Source: a virus. Taken from it: a stretch of DNA of 52,368 nt. The notes beneath the pieces are model-generated. The model saw only the letters and a list, made by a program, of their open reading frames with translations, did not search any database and was not told the DNA's origin. The DNA lies in the IMG/VR virus record IMGVR_UViG_3300010401_000336, positions 1-52,368 of that record. The stretch is one strand, 5' to 3'. Positions 3,833 through 43,185 of this stretch are shown here, piece after piece (the first letter of the stretch is position 1; every line of letters begins with the position of its first letter). The translations under genes were made by a program, and so were the position numbers.

Positions 3833-5224
3833 CTACTCCACCACCACAACCCAGTCAGGATCGCCGCCCGCGTTGTTACCAAAAGTCGTGGTATCGAATG
3901 CCTGGCTGCCGCTATTGGCATGCGTGGTCACGGTCGTGGGCGTTCCGTTGGTCGGGTCGATTCGCTTGATCGTCACCGTCGCCGCGCTGAATCCGGAAAA
4001 CGCGAGCGTCACGCTGCCCGCCGCCGGGACGTAGAGCCCTCCCCACGAACCGTCGGAAGCCTTCGATGCCGTGACGTAGTTGGCCGTTCCGGCAGTGCCT
4101 CGGCCGGCGGTGACGAAAGTGTTCGATTCATCAGGTACCAGCAGGTGCCAAGCGCGCGAGCGGATCGCCGTCGCCATCACCAGGAAGTGCGACATCGAGG
4201 TCGTGGTGAGGTTGCTCGTCCACGGCCCGTTGTTCGCGCTGAAGAGTGGGTTGCTTACCGTGCGGTTGCCGCCGAACGGCCACACGGCTTCATCGCCGTG
4301 GATCCAACCAGCGAGTCCACCGGAGAAGATCGACTGCCAGTGCTGGGAGCGAAGCTGCAAAGCGGTCGCCCCGCCGCCACCCGTGTTGCCCTCGTACCGG
4401 CCTTCGCCGAGGAGAACGGGCACAGGAGAGCCGAGGTCATATCCGCGCTGTACGGTGTCGTTGGTGATGACGCCGACCTGCGCGAAGTTGACGTCGTGCA
4501 TCGACGAATCGCCCACGTCGGTGGCGAGCGCGTCGGGCGGCCCACCCCAGTGAGCCGTGCGCAGCTGCGTCAGATTGGCCGCTTTGAGGATGGCCGCGAA
4601 CCCCTCGAGCAGGGTAAGCGCCGCACCGCTTAGTGGTGTCGGCGTCGAGTCGGGAGCAAGATCGCCGCCGATCACCCAGATAATGTTTTTGAAGCTCGCG
4701 TAGCGGGCGGCAAGGAAGGACGCGTACGCGTTGACCTTCGTCGTCCCGTTCGCGAGCAGCTGGTTGTACCAACCCTGGTCACCGCCGTGGCTGCCCATGT
4801 AGAGCGGGAACGCATAGACGAGAAAACCGCGCGCCAGGCATGCGTTGAGGTAGAAATCGACGTTCGCCCAGTAGGTTGCCGCAGGCAGCGAGAAGTCCGC
4901 GACCGTCGTCGCGCCACCACCACCAGTCGCGCCTGTGAAAGGTGAGTTGCCGTTTGCATCGAACGGCGGGGATTGCGAGAAGCAGTTTTCGATCAGCTCA
5001 ACGATTACGGTGTTGATCCCCTTGGCCTGCCTGTCGTTGAGGTAGGTGATCATCTCCGACTGCTGGAGCTGAGTGATCACGTCCCAGCCGGCATCGCCGA
5101 CTGGCAAGAACGGCACACCGCTCGGCGACTGAAAGAACCGCCGGTTGGCCGAGACGGAGAGGGGGAAGGTTCCTAAATTGGCGTTGTTGTGCAGCCGCCG
5201 GCTGGATCTGAATGAATAGGGCAT
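3833..5224 (-). CDS. DUF4038 glycoside hydrolase (virion polysaccharide depolymerase candidate)
   Basis: A 463-residue protein. I place the start at ATG 5224, which overlaps the stop of the collagen-like gene (TGATG), rather than at a longer frame inside that gene. Residues 28-330 match the DUF4038/apiosidase-like TIM-barrel family: NRRFFQSPSGVPFLPVGDAGWD, YLNDRQAKGINTV, IIWVIGGDLAPD (the GGD at 186-188) and PVLLGEGRYEG with Glu274. The last two lie where the family's catalytic Asp and Glu are expected. Residues 380-463 form a beta domain resembling the 'putative collagen-binding domain' commonly found after DUF4038. It sits between a collagen-like fibre and a LamG protein, so it probably cuts a host surface polysaccharide during adsorption. 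The exact sugar linkage is unknown. Confidence 0.8.
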   Translation of the reverse strand: MPYSFRSSRRLHNNANLGTFPLSVSANRRFFQSPSGVPFLPVGDAGWDVITQLQQSEMITYLNDRQAKGINTVIVELIENCFSQSPPFDANGNSPFTGATGGGGATTVADFSLPAATYWANVDFYLNACLARGFLVYAFPLYMGSHGGDQGWYNQLLANGTTKVNAYASFLAARYASFKNIIWVIGGDLAPDSTPTPLSGAALTLLEGFAAILKAANLTQLRTAHWGGPPDALATDVGDSSMHDVNFAQVGVITNDTVQRGYDLGSPVPVLLGEGRYEGNTGGGGATALQLRSQHWQSIFSGGLAGWIHGDEAVWPFGGNRTVSNPLFSANNGPWTSNLTTTSMSHFLVMATAIRSRAWHLLVPDESNTFVTAGRGTAGTANYVTASKASDGSWGGLYVPAAGSVTLAFSGFSAATVTIKRIDPTNGTPTTVTTHANSGSQAFDTTTFGNNAGGDPDWVVVVE

Positions 5225-8200
5225 CAGCCGAACGCCGCGCCGGCGCTCTGTACGTAGTACTGATTTGCCTGTGGCCCGGTGACGCCAACGGCGTACACAG
5301 AGAACAGATCGACGGTGCCGCTCATCGGGGAGCCGAAGTCCTGCATCTGGCTCGGCCAGTTGACGCGGCCCGTGGTGCCCGTCGGCCAATTCATCAGCGC
5401 CGTCGCCTTCCAGTGGAAGACGCGAAGCAAGTAGTTTCCGGGGCCCGTTGGCCCGGTCATGATGATGTTGGTCGTCGTGCCGATCGGGACGTACTGCTTC
5501 TGCCCCTTGGACAGATCGATGATCATCGTCTGGCCGGTCGTGGGATTCAGGAACTCACCGGCGAACTGGACGGAGTTGACGCCGAGCAAACGCCCGGAGT
5601 CGTCGAGGACGACCGGGCTATTGAGTAGCGCGCCGCCGCTCATACCGGTCCAGCGCGCGATGGCGTTCTGCGTCGCGCTTCCGGGGCCCACGATCGTTCC
5701 CGCTCCGCCGCCTCCAGCTGCGCCTGCTGGACCTTGTGCACCCTGCGGACCGGTCGGTCCGGTAGCGCCCGCGGGTCCGGTCGGGCCGGTAGGGCCGAGC
5801 CCGCCAGTTGGTCCCGTTGGGCCTAATCCACCGGTTGGGCCACCAGGTCCCGTCGGCTGAAGCGCGCCGGTGCCGAACGTTAGGGCGGGACTTGCGTAGT
5901 AGACGCCGAGTCGATCCTCAAAGAAGAGGATGTCCTCAGCTCCGCTTGCCACGCTGAGTGTTGGGATCGCGTTGCCCTGCCAGCGGACACCAGTCGGCCA
6001 GGTACTAACGAAGGTATTCGGCTCGACATGCTTGACCCGGAGCGCAAGCGACTGTGGGCCCGATGGCGGGCCGGTGAAGAGGAACGACGTGAGCGTCCCG
6101 ATGAACGCCGCTTGGTCGGGCCCGCTTGCCCAGTTGATGATCTGTGTCTGCCCGGTCGGAACCGAGACTTCCGCCGCATACTGAAGGCGCCGAACGTTCG
6201 AGAGTGTGCCGTCCGTTCCGATATAGACGGTGCTGTTCTTTAGGGTCGTGCCGCCGACGCCAGACCAAAGCGCGATGGCGTTGTCGACCGTCGCGTTGGG
6301 CCCGGTGATCCCGCCGCCACCGCCGGAGCTGGAGCCGTTGGCGCCAGCCGGTCCAGTGGCTCCCTGAGGTCCAGTTGGACCCGTGGATCCGAGTTGTCCT
6401 GTGACACCAGTGGCACCTTGAAGCCCAGTTGCGCCCTGAGGCCCCGTTGCACCCTGCTGTCCGGTCGGACCTTGCTGTCCCGTCGGGCCAAAGTTTCCGC
6501 TACCGCCCGTGCCGAAGGTGAGCGCAGCTGCGCCGTAGTAGGCGAGCTGAGTTGGACTGGTGCGCCTCCCGTCAACGACAACCAGATCGTGCGCGCCGCT
6601 GGCCGTGCTGAGCGTCGGGGTAACGCTGTCTTGCCAGAGGATCCCGGTCGGTTGCCATACGCCAGCCGTGTTGGCAGCGTTGTGGATGATGCGAAGGTTG
6701 ACCCAGCACGGACCCGTGGGCGGCCCCGTGAACATGAACGACGTGATCGCGTCAGAGACGAGCGCAGTTTGGTAGGGGCCGCTCTGGAAATTGATGATCT
6801 GCGTGAGGCCCGTCGGGACCTGAACGTCGCCAGCGAATTCGAGCGAGCGGACGCCGAATAGATTGCCGCCGTCGGTAAGCGCGACGGTGCTGTTGTTGAT
6901 CGCGGTGCCGTTTGGTCCGCTCCAGCGAACAAGTGCCTGGTGCTGCGTGATCGCGGGACCAGTGATCCCGGCGCCCCCTCCGCCTGAACCAGAGCCGTTA
7001 GCGCCCGCAGGACCGGTGACCCCGGGAGATCCCTGGGCACCCTGCGGTCCGATGCTGCCGGTGGGCCCCACAGAACCGGTGGGGCCGAGCCCGCCGGTCG
7101 GGCCGATCGTTCCCGTTGGTCCAACCTGGCCAGTTGGTCCTACGGTTCCAGTGGGCCCGACCGTGCCAGTAGGGCCCTGCTGTCCGGTCGGACCAACCTG
7201 TCCAGTAGGCCCGACGGTACCGGTCGGTCCCTGTTGACCGGTGGGGCCAACGCTTCCGGTGGGACCAGCGGCTCCTGTGACACCAGGCGAACCTTGGCTA
7301 CCAGCGGGTCCGGTCGGCCCAGTCGCGCCGGTTACACCTTGTGGACCGATCGTGCCCGTAGGTCCCTGCTGCCCAGTCGGTCCTTGGGGACCGGTGACAC
7401 CAGGACTACCCTGCTGACCCGCTGGTCCGGTCGGACCAGTGCTGCCCGTGACACCAGGGGCCCCCGCGGATCCTTGGCTTCCCTGAGCACCCTGTGGGCC
7501 CGTGACACCGGGAGAGCCTTGCTGCCCCGCGGGACCCGTCGGTCCGGTTGGACCCGTGACGCCAGGACTTCCTTGCGGGCCAGCGCCCGATCCTGCTGCA
7601 CCCTGTGGACCGGTCGACCCCGGGCTTCCCTGCTGGCCGGCGGCGCCGGTTGGCCCCGTCGTTCCCGTCGGACCAATCGCGCCCTCGAGCGAGGTGAGCA
7701 CCACAGAGCCGGTGAGGAAAACCTGGTGGGTGCCGGTGCCCTTCGAGAATTCAATCCAGCCGGTGTGGCCGCCCGGGCCGCTCGCCCGAATGACATTCTG
7801 GACCGTGACCGACTCGCGAACCGCGGTGCCGCCCTGAAGCGAGCGGACAACCGGCCCGGCAACTCCGTCGATGACTAGCCGAACGTCAACTTCGTTGAAC
7901 TGCGAGCCGGTGGCTTGGCCTCCAGTCGCCTGGAGCTCAAGCACGCCGACACCCCAGACCGGCGCCGTTGCCCCGCCGATGACGTAGGCAAAGCTGTTGT
8001 TGACCGCCGTGAACCCGAAGCCAGACGCCGCGCCGGGGCCGCCGCTCGTGCCCGACCAAACCGACGTTCCGACGGGAAGGCCGGCAATAATTGCGGCAGG
8101 TCCAGTAACCCCGGGAGAGCCCTGGCTGCCTTGCGCTCCAGCGGGTCCGGTCGGGCCGGTTGCGCCGGTGGTTCCCGCGGGACCCGTTGGTCCAGTGTTG

Positions 8201-8793
8201 CCTACCTGACCGGTCGGTCCAGCGGAGCCCGTCGGTCCGAGTCCACCTGTGGGTCCAGTCGGACCGAGCCCACCGGTAGATCCGATTTGCCCGCTCGGGC
8301 CCTGCTGCCCAGTAGGGCCGATCGATCCAGTGGGGCCAACCGTTCCCGTCTGTCCCTGCGGGCCAGTAACGCCGGGTGATCCTTGCGAGCCCGCCGGGCC
8401 TGTTGATCCGGCAACGCCAGCGGAACCCTGTGTGCCCTGTTGTCCAGCTGGACCCGTCGGGCCAGTCGCACCCGTCGCGCCGCGCTGACCCGTTGGACCG
8501 GTGACACCGGGCGTTCCTTGTGGCGCCCCAGCGGGGCCAGTAACGCCCGGGCTACCCTGCGCACCATCGGCGCCAGCGGGGCCGGTTGGTCCTTGTGGAC
8601 CGGTCGTGCCACCGCCAAAAGAAACGCCGCTGGGCAGCCCCGAGAAGACCCCGGGAGATCCCTGCGGCCCCTGCGGTCCGGTCGCCCCACGCGGTCCAGT
8701 CGCTCCGCTCGTGCTCGACCCGCTATTGTTGTTCGGTACTCCGCACGGAGCATCGCAATAGACGATGAACGTTCTACAGGCGGGGGCGGCCAT
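5224..8793 (-). CDS. Collagen-like tail fibre 1 with three repeated globular domains
   Basis: A 1189-residue protein that probably forms trimeric triple-helical rods. Gly-X-Y runs (GPTG, GVTG, GPAG, GPQG) cover about residues 31-48, 63-232, 373-599, 767-820 and 978-1028. Between them lie a unique globular domain (233-372) and three copies of a domain of roughly 155 residues (609-763, 827-976, 1031-1189). These share (A/R)xWSG or ARWTG, a (V/S)L(E/Q)(F/Y)A strand, PTGxTQIIN, FxFTGPPxGP and (A/L)LTFGTG. Thr is frequent in the Y position. Codons for the repeats are varied, which resists slippage. ATG at 8793 is clear; no strong ribosome binding site is visible. It is followed by the overlapping DUF4038 gene. 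Most likely a receptor-reading tail fibre. Confidence 0.9.
5227..5703 (-). repeat. Globular domain copy A3 of collagen-like fibre 1
   Basis: Residues 1031-1189, the C-terminal copy of the repeated fibre domain. It retains [32 protein letters not shown] and [10 protein letters not shown], but ends in a diverged SAGAAFG. As the fibre tip it is the best candidate for receptor contact or trimerisation. Confidence 0.75.
5866..6315 (-). repeat. Globular domain copy A2 of collagen-like fibre 1
   Basis: Residues 827-976. Shared signatures are [43 protein letters not shown] and [10 protein letters not shown]. They align closely with copy A1 and more distantly with A3. Confidence 0.8.
6505..6969 (-). 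repeat. Globular domain copy A1 of collagen-like fibre 1
   Basis: Residues 609-763. Shared signatures are [43 protein letters not shown] and AAALTFGTG. It follows the longest Gly-X-Y run and a Gly-rich hinge (SGSGGGG). Confidence 0.8.
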
Positions 8794-8839: not shown

Positions 8840-9577
8840 TCAGGCCCACTCGGTCAAAGAATAGGCGTAGTAAGCGGCGGCCTCGGCGGCAGAATGCGTG
8901 CGCGCGAGCACCACGAGCTCAGCCAGCGCGCCATCGAAAGAATCCGAGGCCCCAGGCCCGTCGAAAAGTCGGAACCGGTTGAATGTCTGCGTGCCCACGT
9001 TGGCCGAGCCAAGACCTGCGGCGTTCCCGTTGAGGAAGAACGACATCACGGTCCCGGAGAACGAATAGCTAGCTCGAGTATGCGCACCGGTCGCAAAAAG
9101 ACCTGGCGAACTTACCGACGCCGACGCCGAAGCATCGTCCTCGCGGTCGTAACGCAGCACGTTGGATCCTGGGTTGTCACAGCGGCAAACCGACGTTGCG
9201 GCACCAGTCGTGTGATCCCAGGCGGTGAGCACATTGCTCCCGATTGTGTCGATCCTGAATGTTGCAAAGACAGAGAACGCGATGTCGTCGCCATTCATCC
9301 TGGAAAGCACGCTTCCGGATGTCAGAGATAGGGACTCAAGTGAATTGGTCGTGAGTACTGGGCGGCCACCCCAGCTCGTCGTGTCCCAGGTCGGCTGAAG
9401 CGAAACGGTAGTCTGCGCAACCGTATTTCCGTTGCCGCTTCGGTCTGACCACTGCGACACGGTACCGGAGCCGGTGACGTTCGCGTAGTTGGTCGACGCG
9501 TACCACCAGGCAAGCGGGTTCAGCGAACCGGGCGACCAACCAGTCTCGCCCGCTGCAATGATCTGCCTGAGATCCAT
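8840..9577 (-). CDS. LamG/concanavalin-like protein 2
   Basis: A 245-residue protein with a LamG-type layout. [10 protein letters not shown] is followed by [12 protein letters not shown], typical of carbohydrate-binding 'W-x-D-x-SGNGN' modules, then [40 protein letters not shown] and [14 protein letters not shown] overlaps the stop of collagen-like fibre 2 (TAATG), so the two are coupled. It probably binds a host polysaccharide as part of the fibre assembly. It resembles the 241-residue protein at 3107-3832 in fold and gene position (each comes shortly after a collagen-like gene), but the sequences are not close. No catalytic residues are evident. Confidence 0.68.
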
Positions 9578-11556
9578 TAGAGCTGGTAGCGGCTGCCGGG
9601 GTTCCAGCCGACGAGCGCGGTGTGCTTGAAGATCTGCCCCATGTTCGCCGCGAGCGTCGCGATGGTCCCGCTCGGGGTGCCCGTCACCGTAGAGATGATC
9701 TTCGCGTTGGCGCTTGAATCACGGTTCTCGATCGCCACGACCATGCCGTCCGTCACTCCCACCTGGCCGAGCGTGTACGTGCGGTCCGCGGAGTTGGTGC
9801 CGGGAACAAACCACACGGTACCGGTCGGCGCGCTCACGTTGGCATTGGCGTCCGGGAGAACCCCGCCGAACTGAGGACCTGCGATCGCGCGCATCGGACC
9901 CGAGCCGCCGAGCTTGCTTCGGCTCGCGCCGAAGAAGTCGAGGGAGTATTGGTCCATGGCGAGGGTGCCTACGGAGGTCTGCACAGTTGCCGCGGGGGTC
10001 AGCACTTGGCTCATCTCGACCCGCGTTGCCGTGCCGGCGCTGAAGGCGCCCCGAATGCGGGAGCCGTCTTTGAGTATGAGGGATGATGCGAGGATTGAGT
10101 CACTTTCGGTACCACGACATGTGACCATCCCGCCGAGCCGAACGTCGACCGTACCCGTGACAAGGCAGTCGTTGAGGAAAAGGTTCGTATTCGCCGAAGT
10201 GTTCTGATTCAGCGCGTTTGAGCCGTTGCCGTTCAGGTAGATGCCGCTGAGGGTGAGCGTCGGAGTGTTGGTCGGGAACCAGCCGATCGCGATGTTCGGT
10301 CGATTCGTGCCAGCGATCGGATACGTGGAATCGCTGAACGCGGCTAGCGTGAGCTGCGAGCTGCCCGTCTGCGTGATGTTGACGACGCCGTAATTGCCAG
10401 GGCTAAGGAGCAAAGTGCCGCCGCCAGCGGGGAGTCCCGCGAGGATAGCGACAATGTTTCCCGGATTGACAATCCAAGTCGCGTTGCTCGAGGCGGTCGG
10501 CCCCATCTGGAGGTAGCCGCTCGGGATGCCTACATTGCCAACGTTGCGCAGATCATTCTGCTGCCAGTCGGCCATGACAGGACTGAACTCATATTCGCCG
10601 ATAGTGGCGATCTTGATCTTGGCGCTCCCGCTCGTCGTCTCAAGCTGAAGCCCGCGCACGCCCTCTGTGCCGCCACCAACGATAACCGTATCAGGCACGT
10701 CACCGGTTGTGTACCTGACCACCGGAACGTCGAATGTGCCCGTCGAGCCGCGCGCAGAAACGAGCGAGGTGGTGCTATATGGCCCGCGAACGAAACCGCT
10801 CTGCGCCGCGCCGGTCGCGCCCTGCGCACCGAATTCGACGCTTCCGCCATCCGAACCAAGGCGCACGTCCTTAGCAAACCCAAGCGTGCCCGCGGTGCCG
10901 ATTGCAAGGTGCCCGCCGGTCACGCCCGTACCAATGGGCAGGCCGACGCCCGTGGGGCCCTGGACTCCCGTGACGCCGGGAGAGCCCTGCGAGCCCTGAA
11001 CGCCGATCGGACCGGTCGGACCGATCTGACCAGTTGGGCCTTGCGGGCCGGTGACGCCCGTGACGCCCTGCGGACCGGTGTTGCCGCGCGGACCGGTTGG
11101 GCCAGTGGGACCCGTGACACCGGGAGAGCCCTGAGGACCAGCGCCAGAGCCAGCTGCACCAGCCGGACCGGTGAGACCTAAGCTGCCCTGCGGACCTTGT
11201 GTGCCGACGGGCCCAACTGCGCCTTGCGGGCCTGTGACGCCTTGGATGCCTTGGATGCCCGTCTGGCCGATTGGGCCCGTCGGGCCAGTCTGACCCTGCG
11301 GACCGGTGACCCCCTGTTGACCGGTGGGACCCACGCTTCCGGTCGGCCCGGTGGGGCCGGGAACGCCGGTGACGCCAATGCTGCCGGTCGGGCCCTGTAC
11401 GCCGTAGGGGCCGGTGGGGCCAGGCGAACCCTGCGGGCCGATAGTTCCCGTGGGGCCGCCAGCGGGGCCTGCTGGGCCCGTGGGGCCGGCGGGACCTGTG
11501 CTGCCGACGGCGGACGCGAGCAGCGCATCAAGGAAGGTGAGTTCGGAAGAAGCCAT
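9577..11556 (-). CDS. Collagen-like tail fibre 2
   Basis: A 659-residue fibre protein. Residues 1-20 ([15 protein letters not shown]) are a short helical head, probably for attachment. Residues 21-204 are a Gly-X-Y triple-helix region rich in GPTG, GVTG and GPQG. Residues 205-660 are beta-rich: a shaft with [18 protein letters not shown] and [19 protein letters not shown], a right-handed beta-helix-like stretch ([50 protein letters not shown]), and a C-terminal knob ([20 protein letters not shown]). It is the second collagen-like fibre of this phage and directly precedes a LamG gene. Probably binds receptor or carries the next subunits. Confidence 0.87.
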
Positions 11557-32106: not shown

Positions 32107-34569
32107 TCACCAAGTCTCTAAAGGTTTCGGAGCAGCTGCGGCGAGCTGGTCGATGTAGGTCCAGTCGGGGTTCGCCCACATGTCGCCGCCGAGCATCAGC
32201 TCGGTGAAGGCCCACACAAGTGCGTCCATGCGGTCCGGGCTCTTCGTGGAGAACGCGGGGTCCCACGTGACCATCTGGTCTTCTAGCTGGGCGAAGCAGC
32301 CAACGTGGTGGATGCGGCCCTGCTCGTAGAGCGCAGCGATCGGCTCAGCTCGCACGGTCTTGCCGCGGGAGGCGCGAACCTTGGTGACCGCGAGATTCGG
32401 TCCCGCAGTCCTGATGTTCGCTTCCACGAGGTCGCCACCGTTGTTGACCTCGGCGATCACCCGGTCGGCTTCGTGCCGGCTATAGACGCCCAACACCTGC
32501 TGCGCCCACTGATTCGGTGTCGCCGCCGTCATCGACGCGTCCTCGATCACGTAGCCGTGACCGTTCACGCCGATGCCGGCGCATATGATGCCGGTCTCGT
32601 CGCTGTCCTCGCTGGACGAAACGGCCGGGTCAACCGCAACGATCACCCGCTGCATTGCGGGCATGTCGCCCGACTTGATGCGCAGCTCCTCGATGCGCCC
32701 GCGCTTCCAGAGCGCCCCGGGAGCGTCGTCCAAGACCTCGCCGTCGAGCTCCTGGCGACCTAGCCGGGTGCCCTCGTACTTCTGGACAATCTGCGCCAGG
32801 AAGGTCGGCGCTAGGTTTGATCGGTTATCGGCGGTGCGGCCCCGGGAGACCACCACGTCGCGGCCCTCACGCTTGAGTAGCCCGCGGATGATCTCCGTCG
32901 GTCGCGGGGTGGTCGCGATGACGGCGCGCGGATGCTTGCCCACGCGAAGCGAAAGCATCGCCTGGTCCCACGCTTCGGGGTAGCGCCAGGCGGCCAGCTC
33001 GTCGGCGACGAAAAGGTCGATGCCGGGACCACGGAAACGGTCAGGCTCGTCCGCTGAGTAAAGTCTTGCCCTGGCCCCGTTCGGCCAGGTGAGCCGGCTT
33101 TTGCTGGGCTCATAGGTCGGTCGGTTCCACTTGCGTGAGACCGCAAGGAACCCGCTCACGCCCTCAACGAGAACGTCGCGAACGTCGGCTGCGGTTGCGC
33201 CGGCGATGCCGATGCGTCCCGCCCTGCCAGACTCAACTTCGGACTGAACGAACTCGACGAGCGAGCGCGTATTGTGCGTCGGGATCATGGACCGCGACGC
33301 GAGGAAAAGATGACTCGGTGAGTCGACCTGGATACACCGTACCGGCACTGACGGTCGAGGCCTGATCTCGGTTATGTACCGACGGTGTACTCGGTTCGCT
33401 TGCCCCTTGCCCGAATGCTGCCTTGCTAGCTTTCGCTGCAACCGAAAAACTTGGGTATGCGGGGTGAACGTGGTTCGGTACCGAGGCCCACAATCTCGGC
33501 CCTTTAGAGTTGCGCGCTCTTCGCGTAACGTCGGCTTGAAACCAAGCGAGACACAGAGTTCAAAGAAGCCATCGGCTAGCGCCTTGCTTACTACCAAGAA
33601 TTCGCAATGCCCAGACGGCGTAACGCTCCCATCCGTGTCCATTAGGCCCTGAAGCAGGGCCAGCCTCTGACCGGCCGAGGCTCGAAGGTAGGTCTGCGGG
33701 ATGTGCTTGTTCTTCCGCACGCCAAGTCCACGGAGCTTTCGAATGAAGCCGCCGTCCGCTTGGCCAAGTCGATATCGTACGGCCCTCGATCTGATATCTT
33801 TACGAGGCGGCCCCACTTCACAGCCGGCAGCTCTCAGGAGCCCTGGCAATTCGCCATCCGCACTCGTGACCGTCGGATCACGGGAATCACCGTCACCCAG
33901 CCAGACTCCGAAAACGTACGGATCGATCGGCAGTGCCGCGGCAGGAAGCTGCAATTCCTGCGTCAAGTCAATCGAGTGGTTTCGCTCGCGACCGCCGTAT
34001 AGAAGCGTCTCACGGATCTGCTCGGTGGTGACAATAGAGGCGAAAAGCCTAGGCCTGCACTGTGTCCGCTCAGTCCTGCTGCTTGCGCCGCGAATCCTTC
34101 GTGTTTCTGCTTTGCGTACCGCGTGCGTCTTGGTCAGCCACTGATGCTCAGCATCCGCGACCATCACCGTTCCGTCATCGAAAACTACATCATAACAGAC
34201 GTGGTCTTGCATGACCTGCGTGACGAAAGTCACACGACACGGCTTTCCGCATTCATCGAAAACAGTGTCGCCAACGGCAACCTGCCCCATCGTGGTCCAG
34301 CCGCTCGGAGTCGGTATCTCCACGGCGCAGCTTAGCGCTTTACCGAATCCGCGTCCAGCGAGGAGAAGCCAGATCGTCCACCAGTCACCCGGCGGCGGAA
34401 GCTGGTTCGGTCGTGCCCAGAATCCCCATTCGCATGGGCCAAGCGGGTCGGTGCCGAGTAGCTCTAGCTCCGCCTCACTCAGGCTTACTATCGCCGCCGC
34501 TCGTTGCTCCGGCGGTAGTGCCAGTAGCCGCGAGGCCAGCGATTCGCTCGAGGAGTGCGCCCCTTGCAT
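32107..34569 (-). CDS. terL: Large terminase with intein in Walker A
   Basis: An 820-residue precursor (464 after splicing). N-extein 1-77: SEAELELLGTDP, WARPNQLPPPGDWW, LLLAGRGFGK. Intein 78-433. C-extein from Thr434: TRSLVEFVQSEVESGRAG, Walker B IDLFVADELAAWR, motif III AVIATTPRP, then the nuclease domain with AVDPAVSSSEDSDETGI, VIAEVNNGGD and SPDRMDALVWAFTELML. Splicing restores GRGFGKTRS, the packaging ATPase P-loop. It overlaps the small terminase gene by 95 bases. It cuts and pumps phage DNA into proheads. The N-terminal helical part (ALPPEQRAAAIVSL) is also typical, so the overlapping start at 34569 is credible. Confidence 0.93.
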   Translation of the reverse strand: MQGAHSSSESLASRLLALPPEQRAAAIVSLSEAELELLGTDPLGPCEWGFWARPNQLPPPGDWWTIWLLLAGRGFGKALSCAVEIPTPSGWTTMGQVAVGDTVFDECGKPCRVTFVTQVMQDHVCYDVVFDDGTVMVADAEHQWLTKTHAVRKAETRRIRGASSRTERTQCRPRLFASIVTTEQIRETLLYGGRERNHSIDLTQELQLPAAALPIDPYVFGVWLGDGDSRDPTVTSADGELPGLLRAAGCEVGPPRKDIRSRAVRYRLGQADGGFIRKLRGLGVRKNKHIPQTYLRASAGQRLALLQGLMDTDGSVTPSGHCEFLVVSKALADGFFELCVSLGFKPTLREERATLKGRDCGPRYRTTFTPHTQVFRLQRKLARQHSGKGQANRVHRRYITEIRPRPSVPVRCIQVDSPSHLFLASRSMIPTHNTRSLVEFVQSEVESGRAGRIGIAGATAADVRDVLVEGVSGFLAVSRKWNRPTYEPSKSRLTWPNGARARLYSADEPDRFRGPGIDLFVADELAAWRYPEAWDQAMLSLRVGKHPRAVIATTPRPTEIIRGLLKREGRDVVVSRGRTADNRSNLAPTFLAQIVQKYEGTRLGRQELDGEVLDDAPGALWKRGRIEELRIKSGDMPAMQRVIVAVDPAVSSSEDSDETGIICAGIGVNGHGYVIEDASMTAATPNQWAQQVLGVYSRHEADRVIAEVNNGGDLVEANIRTAGPNLAVTKVRASRGKTVRAEPIAALYEQGRIHHVGCFAQLEDQMVTWDPAFSTKSPDRMDALVWAFTELMLGGDMWANPDWTYIDQLAAAAPKPLETW
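33271..34338 (-). mobile_element. Class 3-type intein with LAGLIDADG endonuclease
   Basis: 356 residues (78-433 of TerL), inserted between the Lys and Thr of Walker A. Starts ALSCAVEIPTPSGWTTMGQV, so residue 1 is Ala rather than Cys or Ser. Ends SRSMIPTHN followed by Thr. The class 3 Trp-Cys-Thr set is present: W67 (ADAEHQW, block B), C335 (VPVRCIQVDS, block F), T354 (PTHN, block G). Two LAGLIDADG-like motifs, YVFGVWLGDGDS (about 141-152) and ALLQGLMDTDGSV (227-239), mark an inserted homing endonuclease. Splicing would run through Cys335 and Asn356. The endonuclease would cut an intein-free terL at the same codons. Class assigned from motif reading. Confidence 0.88.
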
Positions 34570-41972: not shown

Positions 41973-42163
41973 TTGGCCCCTCCCACCTTCACCACCCTAA
42001 CCGCATACCCCATCACCGTCCTGTGCGTGTCGAACTGACACGCGGCGGTGACGTGGAGGTCGATGGCGCCGGAGTTGGGGCGGGTGGCGATGAACCAAGG
42101 GTCGGCATTGTATCTTGCACCGAGCGCTTCGGCGGCGGTGGTGAGTTTTACTGTGCCGGTCAC
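41969..42163 (-). CDS. Unknown 64-residue early protein
   Basis: GTG at 42163 overlaps the helicase stop (GTGA). VTGTVKLTTAAEALGARYNA, then DPWFIATRPNSGAIDLHVTA and YAVRVVKVGGAK. Strand-rich with one short helix. Although short, its frame-linked start, end and codon use match neighbours. Function unknown; often such genes downstream of a helicase are anti-host factors. Confidence 0.5.
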   Translation of the reverse strand: MTGTVKLTTAAEALGARYNADPWFIATRPNSGAIDLHVTAACQFDTHRTVMGYAVRVVKVGGAK

Positions 42164-43185
42164 GATCCGTACCTCCGGTCGTCGTCCTCTTCGGGGTTCC
42201 AGGTGTTGGGATGGATGCCCTCTCTTGCGCACTTCTCCAAGTACCTGCGCTCCACGTCGTCGTCGCTCTCGAAGCTCGCGAAGTCGCTGTTCCAGAACAG
42301 CTCCACGATCCGATTGCGCGGCCCGTTCTTCACCTTGTCGACGAATAGGCACTTCGTCCCCACCGGTAGAATCTTACCGCCACCCATGTCGAGCGGTGCC
42401 GTCGGCTCGAAGCCCAAGACGATGACCTCGGCCGCGTGCGCCATGTCGCGGCACTCGCGGATGTTGTCGCGCGTTGGGATCTTCGTGTTCTCGCCCGTGG
42501 TGAGCTGCGAGAACAGTACGCCGCTGATCTTCGCGTCCTTGATCACGTGGCGTAGCACGCTCGCGATCTCGCGGAACTTGACGCGCTCGTCCTGGAACCG
42601 GCGCTTGCTCCGGAACTCCTGCACGTAGTCGAACGCCACAAGATCGATTCGGTGCTCCTTGATGATCTTGCCGAGGTGCCCCGCGAGGTCCTCCACAGGA
42701 TACCGGCGGGCATCGACGAACACGGGCAGCTCCTCGGCCGCGACAACCACGTCGGCGACGCGCCCTGACTCGTCATCCTCGAGCTTCTTGTCGCGATACC
42801 GCATCGCATCCACGCGAGCGCGGCGCACCATCAATCGGTCGCCATAGACCTCCTCGGTGTCCTCGCTGGAGACGATGAGCACGCGCTTGCCCGCCCGGAT
42901 GTTGTCGTCCGTGAACGCAACCAGGAAGCTCGACTTGCCCCACGAGGTCGTCGCGCCGAACAGCCAGGTGAAGCCGGGACGAAAGCCGCCGGTGATGGCG
43001 TCGAGCGCCTTATGCCCGGTGCGGCATTGGACCCCCGGCGCTTCCTTCAGCTTTACCACCGAGGACTCGAGCAAATCCTTCACGGTGAGCACGCGCGGCA
43101 CGTTCAGCGCGAGCGGGCGGACGTTCGCTTTCGTGTCCGGCAGCGGCTTGCCCGCGGCGTGAAGGTCCGCTTGGTCTTCGCTCAT
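42160..43185 (-). CDS. DnaB-like replicative helicase
   Basis: A 341-residue RecA-fold protein lacking the long N-terminal domain of DnaB. It has TGHKALDAITGGFRPGFTWL, Walker A GATTSWGKS (77-85), VLIVSSEDTEEVYGDRLMVR, the acidic strand IDLVAFDYVQEFRS with the Walker B Asp, and SGVLFSQLTTGENTKIPTRD with the H4-type polar strand, plus KTKCLFVDKVKNGPRNRIVE. This is the family of phage DnaB/RepA-like 5'-3' helicases. It comes directly after primase and a replication-initiator-like gene. Confidence 0.85.
   Translation of the reverse strand: MSEDQADLHAAGKPLPDTKANVRPLALNVPRVLTVKDLLESSVVKLKEAPGVQCRTGHKALDAITGGFRPGFTWLFGATTSWGKSSFLVAFTDDNIRAGKRVLIVSSEDTEEVYGDRLMVRRARVDAMRYRDKKLEDDESGRVADVVVAAEELPVFVDARRYPVEDLAGHLGKIIKEHRIDLVAFDYVQEFRSKRRFQDERVKFREIASVLRHVIKDAKISGVLFSQLTTGENTKIPTRDNIRECRDMAHAAEVIVLGFEPTAPLDMGGGKILPVGTKCLFVDKVKNGPRNRIVELFWNSDFASFESDDDVERRYLEKCAREGIHPNTWNPEEDDDRRYGS

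Follow-up and report, generated by a model that had tools for sequence, protein, structure and literature searches.

Class 3 inteins are recognised by a Trp at position B:12, a Cys at F:4 and a Thr at G:5, together with the lack of an N-terminal nucleophile (PMC3196547, PMC5050341), and the order of the two branched intermediates in their splicing has been established (PMC5222942). In the structure of the M. chimaera intein, the catalytic triad consists of Cys124, His65 and Thr143, with Trp67 as the remaining signature residue (PMC7664689). Splicing of the M. smegmatis DnaB intein is blocked when Cys48 and the Cys of block F form a disulfide; Cys48 was called non-conserved in the original paper, and all Cys48 mutants tried failed to splice (PMC6195587). 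In mycobacteriophages, the large terminase subunit (TerL) is the commonest intein host, with the site TerL1-a located between Lys and Thr. Class 3 inteins occur in mycobacteriophage TerL, five TerL inteins have been shown to splice and two to be active endonucleases, and in the same survey mycobacteriophage Terminase_6 proteins carried inteins at the C-motif (TerL6-f) only (Kelley et al. 2016, PMC5050341).

The DNA analysed here, referred to as the window, is a virus record of 52,368 bases from IMG/VR, classed as linear. It encodes a Mu-type portal, a Mu-like gpT head protein, a tape-measure match, Baseplate_J and an integrase, a gene set which most likely identifies it as a temperate tailed phage or a prophage fragment. 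Two long proteins with collagen-like triple-helix repeats are encoded beside the tail genes (window 5224-8793 and 9577-11556, minus strand), and one contig end carries a two-domain glycosyltransferase with GT2 and GT1/GT4-like matches and an apiosidase-like glycoside hydrolase (322-2754 and 3833-5389, minus strand). The gene for the large terminase subunit, terL, is organised as follows.

32107-34569, minus strand: terL precursor, 820 codons plus stop, comprising N-extein, intein and C-extein (open reading frame; PF03237 and PF17289 above cut-off).
34339-34569, minus strand: N-extein, 77 aa, ending in AGRGFGK, the first part of the Walker A motif (matches intein-free TerL relatives).
33271-34338, minus strand: predicted class 3 intein with LAGLIDADG endonuclease, 356 aa, precursor residues 78-433, in frame and stop-free (homology, alignment, model).
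34300-34338, minus strand: block A, intein residues 1-13, starting with Ala1 (alignment with 32 other inteins).
34195-34197, minus strand: Cys48, aligned with the residue of that number which serves as redox switch in the M. smegmatis DnaB intein (24 of the 33 inteins have Cys here).
34135-34167, minus strand: block B, residues 58-68, with DxxH (Asp62, His65) and Trp67 (His65 and Trp67 invariant, 33/33).
33886-33921, minus strand: first LAGLIDADG motif, residues 140-151, catalytic Asp149 (Asp in 32/33; model helix 140-149).
33697-33711, minus strand: endonuclease block D, residues 210-214 (NKHIP), with Lys211 (invariant, 33/33).
33625-33657, minus strand: second LAGLIDADG motif, residues 228-238, catalytic Asp236 (Asp in 32/33; model helix 222-235).
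33298-33345, minus strand: block F, residues 332-347, nucleophile Cys335 (invariant, 33/33).
33271-33291, minus strand: block G, residues 350-356 (SMIPTHN), with Thr354, His355 and Asn356 (Thr and Asn invariant, His in 32/33).
32107-33270, minus strand: C-extein, 387 aa plus stop, starting with TRSLVEF, whose Thr+1 completes the Walker A motif (Terminase_6 domain matches).

The preliminary description, made from the sequence alone, had placed an intein at 33271-34338, and the minus strand of this interval does translate without a stop into 356 aa, in frame inside the 820-aa open reading frame. The junctions read LLLAGRGFGK, then ALSCAVEIPTPSGW...SRSMIPTHN, then TRSLVEFVQS; the insert thus splits the P-loop between the Lys and the Thr of Walker A, with GRGFGK before it and TRSLV after it, as had been proposed. 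The 464-residue terminase with a perfect P-loop anticipated in that description is also recovered when the exteins of 77 and 387 aa are joined, the motif reading AGRGFGKT. Matches to Terminase_6N at precursor residues 453-626 (PF03237, E 2e-14) and to Terminase_6C at residues 645-789 (PF17289, E 1e-17) assign the product to the Terminase_6 large subunits, with an ATPase domain bearing Walker A and an RNase H-like nuclease domain. The phage also encodes a DnaB-like helicase (window 42160-43185, minus strand); its gene is without an intein, though inteins of this family are known from DnaB.

Among solved structures searched with phmmer, the best match was the M. smegmatis class 3 DnaB intein (6bs8, E 1e-31); those of M. 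chimaera (6rix, 6riy) were also found, the class 3 structures ranging from E 1e-31 to 3e-30, and the alignments span both the N- and the C-terminal splicing segments. At the sequence level this likeness is far beyond chance, and the class 1 intein gp41-1 reached an E of only 0.32 as against 1e-31 for the class 3 structures. PI-SceI came next in the PDB sequence search, through its endonuclease part. No intein-splicing model from Pfam or NCBIfam was matched at the thresholds used, which returned the terminase and a sub-threshold LAGLIDADG_3 match only. Scanning viral contigs with the intein yielded 43 relatives, 28-47% identical, and 33 inteins were aligned, of which four came from annotated phages and one, L079, had turned up in the search for terminase relatives; the nearest of the others shares only about 50% identity with the window intein.

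Both the start of the intein and its signature residues agree with what had been claimed. Residue 1 is Ala, and no Cys, Ser or Thr is available there as a nucleophile; among the 33 aligned inteins it is Ala in 20 and Cys or Ser in none (the aligned L190 sequence is one codon short at its start, and its true first residue is Ala). The Trp-Cys-Thr signature lies at B:12, F:4 and G:5 as Trp67, Cys335 and Thr354, the block F Cys falling at residue 335 as predicted, and these residues, together with His65 and Asn356, are invariant in all 33 inteins, His355 being present in 32. The block B His, the penultimate His, the terminal Asn and a Thr at +1 are therefore all in place, and the match of blocks B, F and G to class 3 inteins bears out the class 3-like identity.

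An AlphaFold2 model of the intein, computed from an alignment of 29 sequences, reached a mean pLDDT of 93.8 and a pTM of 0.91. It consists of a HINT domain and a LAGLIDADG domain in which helices 140-149 and 222-235 bear the two motifs, FGVWLGDG (143-150) and LQGLMDTDG (229-237), in a double-motif fold that keeps both catalytic acids, D149 and D236; the LAGLIDADG motifs reported earlier are confirmed and the domain is intact in the model. With Foldseek, the match to PI-SceI extends along the entire chain (E 1e-18, TMq about 0.74), class 3 mini-inteins are matched at TMt 0.82-0.88, and the best structural matches among viral models were an intein-bearing DnaB and terminases.

Occupancy of the site was assessed in C-extein relatives from viral and bacterial contigs, scored by junction pattern. 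In 124 of the 126 readable relatives the P-loop is continuous and in two (L079, L147) it holds an insert, with 18 more being unreadable; intein-free alleles with the same target, for which the preliminary description proposed a search, thus exist, and the sister genes of L079 are empty at the exact point. The L079 intein is 48-52% identical to that of the window, and its joined flanks cross the junction in single blastn alignments to intein-free L078 (94.2% over 984 bases), L069 (93.0%) and L052 (90.2%), and the joined flanks of the window likewise give alignments spanning the junction, at 66-68%, with intein-free terL genes. Three further terminases of this look found via the intein (L004, L005, L015) have the insert between GRG(F/A)GK and TR, the Terminase_6 assignment being confirmed by Pfam for L015 only. 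Sporadic occupancy with exact empty sites fits a mobile element with one exact target. A terminase relative on a Methanoregulaceae MAG contig (L158, ORF from 627) has an intact P-loop, GRGNGKT, and an apparent class 1 mini-intein (CLVAGT start, GILTHN end, Cys next) after WADEI, near the Walker B region.

Anatomy, homology, conservation, the fold model and the existence of empty alleles are the observed basis on which the insert is best explained, with a probability of roughly 0.93, as a full-length class 3 intein with a LAGLIDADG homing endonuclease in a Terminase_6-type Walker A motif, predicted to splice by the class 3 route. Decay of endonucleases is common among inteins. A splicing intein with an inactive endonuclease, inherited vertically and no longer mobile, is the alternative that survives best, yet it is the less likely one, given that Asp149, Lys211, Asp234 and Asp236 are all retained, the domain is modelled with high confidence and the exact site is occupied sporadically. 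Far less probable is an intein of class 3 by descent that has lost splicing and left a dead terminase, for example in a decaying prophage. A prophage-remnant class 3 pseudo-intein is documented, but that one is without the block F Cys (PMC3196547), and although the contig is linear and carries a gene for an integrase, here the catalytic residues are all intact, the frame of 820 codons is whole, the portal, head, tape-measure and baseplate genes around terL are all open, and a PF03237 search of the window found no second Terminase_6N match. Intein positions 4-7 read CAVE instead of the usual LDTP, which counts against the preferred explanation, and class 1 inteins begin with Cys, but a class 1 intein starting at Cys4 (S/CAVEIPTPSG...), followed by its class-1-like stretch and leaving ALS to the N-extein, was rejected and has next to no chance of being correct, since the other 32 aligned inteins all have Leu, Val, Ile or Thr at position 4, no residue of the WCT signature is missing and splicing would give GKALST in place of the GKT of the 124 intein-free relatives.

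For the preferred class 3 reading, the splicing route is taken by homology with studied class 3 inteins. Cys335 of block F, aided by His65 and Thr354, would attack the Lys-Ala1 bond after the P-loop Lys and accept the N-extein, which would then pass from Cys335 to Thr+1; cyclisation of Asn356 would release the intein, and the new peptide bond would restore AGRGFGKT. Because the N-extein would pass to Thr+1 at the P-loop, this residue would be the splicing nucleophile and the Walker A Thr at once. As long as the intein is in place the P-loop is interrupted, and ATP hydrolysis by the terminase should be impossible; it is reasonable to suppose that packaging depends on splicing and that the unspliced protein is unable to package. 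The endonuclease is probably still active, in which case terL alleles without the intein would be cut at this site and the intein would spread by homing.

Cys48 and the block F Cys335 are both present in the window intein, and the occurrence of Cys48 in 24 of the 33 aligned inteins is contrary to its label as non-conserved (PMC6195587). By analogy with M. smegmatis, the intein might gate DNA packaging by redox state, in which case the packaging motor would mature later in an oxidised cell; this is considered improbable. As every Cys48 mutant tried failed to splice, its conservation may reflect folding or catalysis, not sensing. With Cys48 conserved, redox control of packaging in phages can be put directly to the test, and the occupied L079 allele with the empty L078, L069 and L052 provides natural material for homing tests.

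The family is widespread. A search of 50,697 phage records at E 1e-5 gave 742 that match the intein, some of the weaker matches spanning the endonuclease part only, and 513 of the 742 extend over at least 80% of the intein length. Insertion between Lys and Thr or Lys and Ser also occurs in HK97-type TerL (L001), gpA-type TerL (L007, L011, L021), the T4-type gp17 of phage ECD7 (L195), the TerL of mycobacteriophage JeTaime (L190) and DnaB (L041 and Rousseau, L189). The intein tree is mostly unresolved, with 7 of 30 inner branches well supported, and on it host-gene labels cluster no more than shuffled labels do, a result compatible both with repeated jumps between genes and with their absence. 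One family member with Pro first (L012:3998-5017) lies inside a P22-like portal protein, and the class 3 intein family is for this reason not confined to P-loop proteins. Four others (L024, L037, L039, L043) have a complete WCT signature with Gly first and follow a junction of the (D/K)(W/F/Y)K type; their host protein has no Pfam name (L037) and is nuclease-like by eye only.

Compared with known systems, the window intein resembles M. smegmatis DnaB intein 1 (6bs8) and M. chimaera DnaB1 (6rix, 6riy) in its class 3 signature, in its position after the GK of the P-loop, in the numbering of His65 and Trp67, and in the presence of Cys48. Those are mini-inteins without an endonuclease, in a bacterial helicase and followed by Ser+1, whereas the window intein has a LAGLIDADG domain, a phage terminase as host and Thr+1. 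It shares with mycobacteriophage TerL1-a inteins a phage terminase host and insertion between the invariant Lys and the P-loop Thr, and the JeTaime intein, class 3 by motif and perhaps at the TerL1-a site, is 39% identical to it; the TerL1-a hosts belong to the TerL1 family (PMC5050341) and the window host to Terminase_6. The L079 intein is likewise of 356 aa, in the same terminase family by sequence and at the same site (GRGWGK/ALALD...PTHN/SRTGAE), but with Ser in place of Thr at +1. Insertion between Lys and Thr of phage TerL has been published before, as have TerL inteins of class 3 (PMC5050341), and the finding is for this reason less unusual than the preliminary description implied: apart from the homing material and the conservation of Cys48, this is an ordinary, presumably mobile intein in a conserved ATPase site. 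What differs from the mycobacteriophage survey is a Terminase_6-type protein split in its P-loop, which extends the work on mycobacteriophage TerL inteins to the Lys-Thr site in the Terminase_6 of a phage whose head genes are Mu-like.
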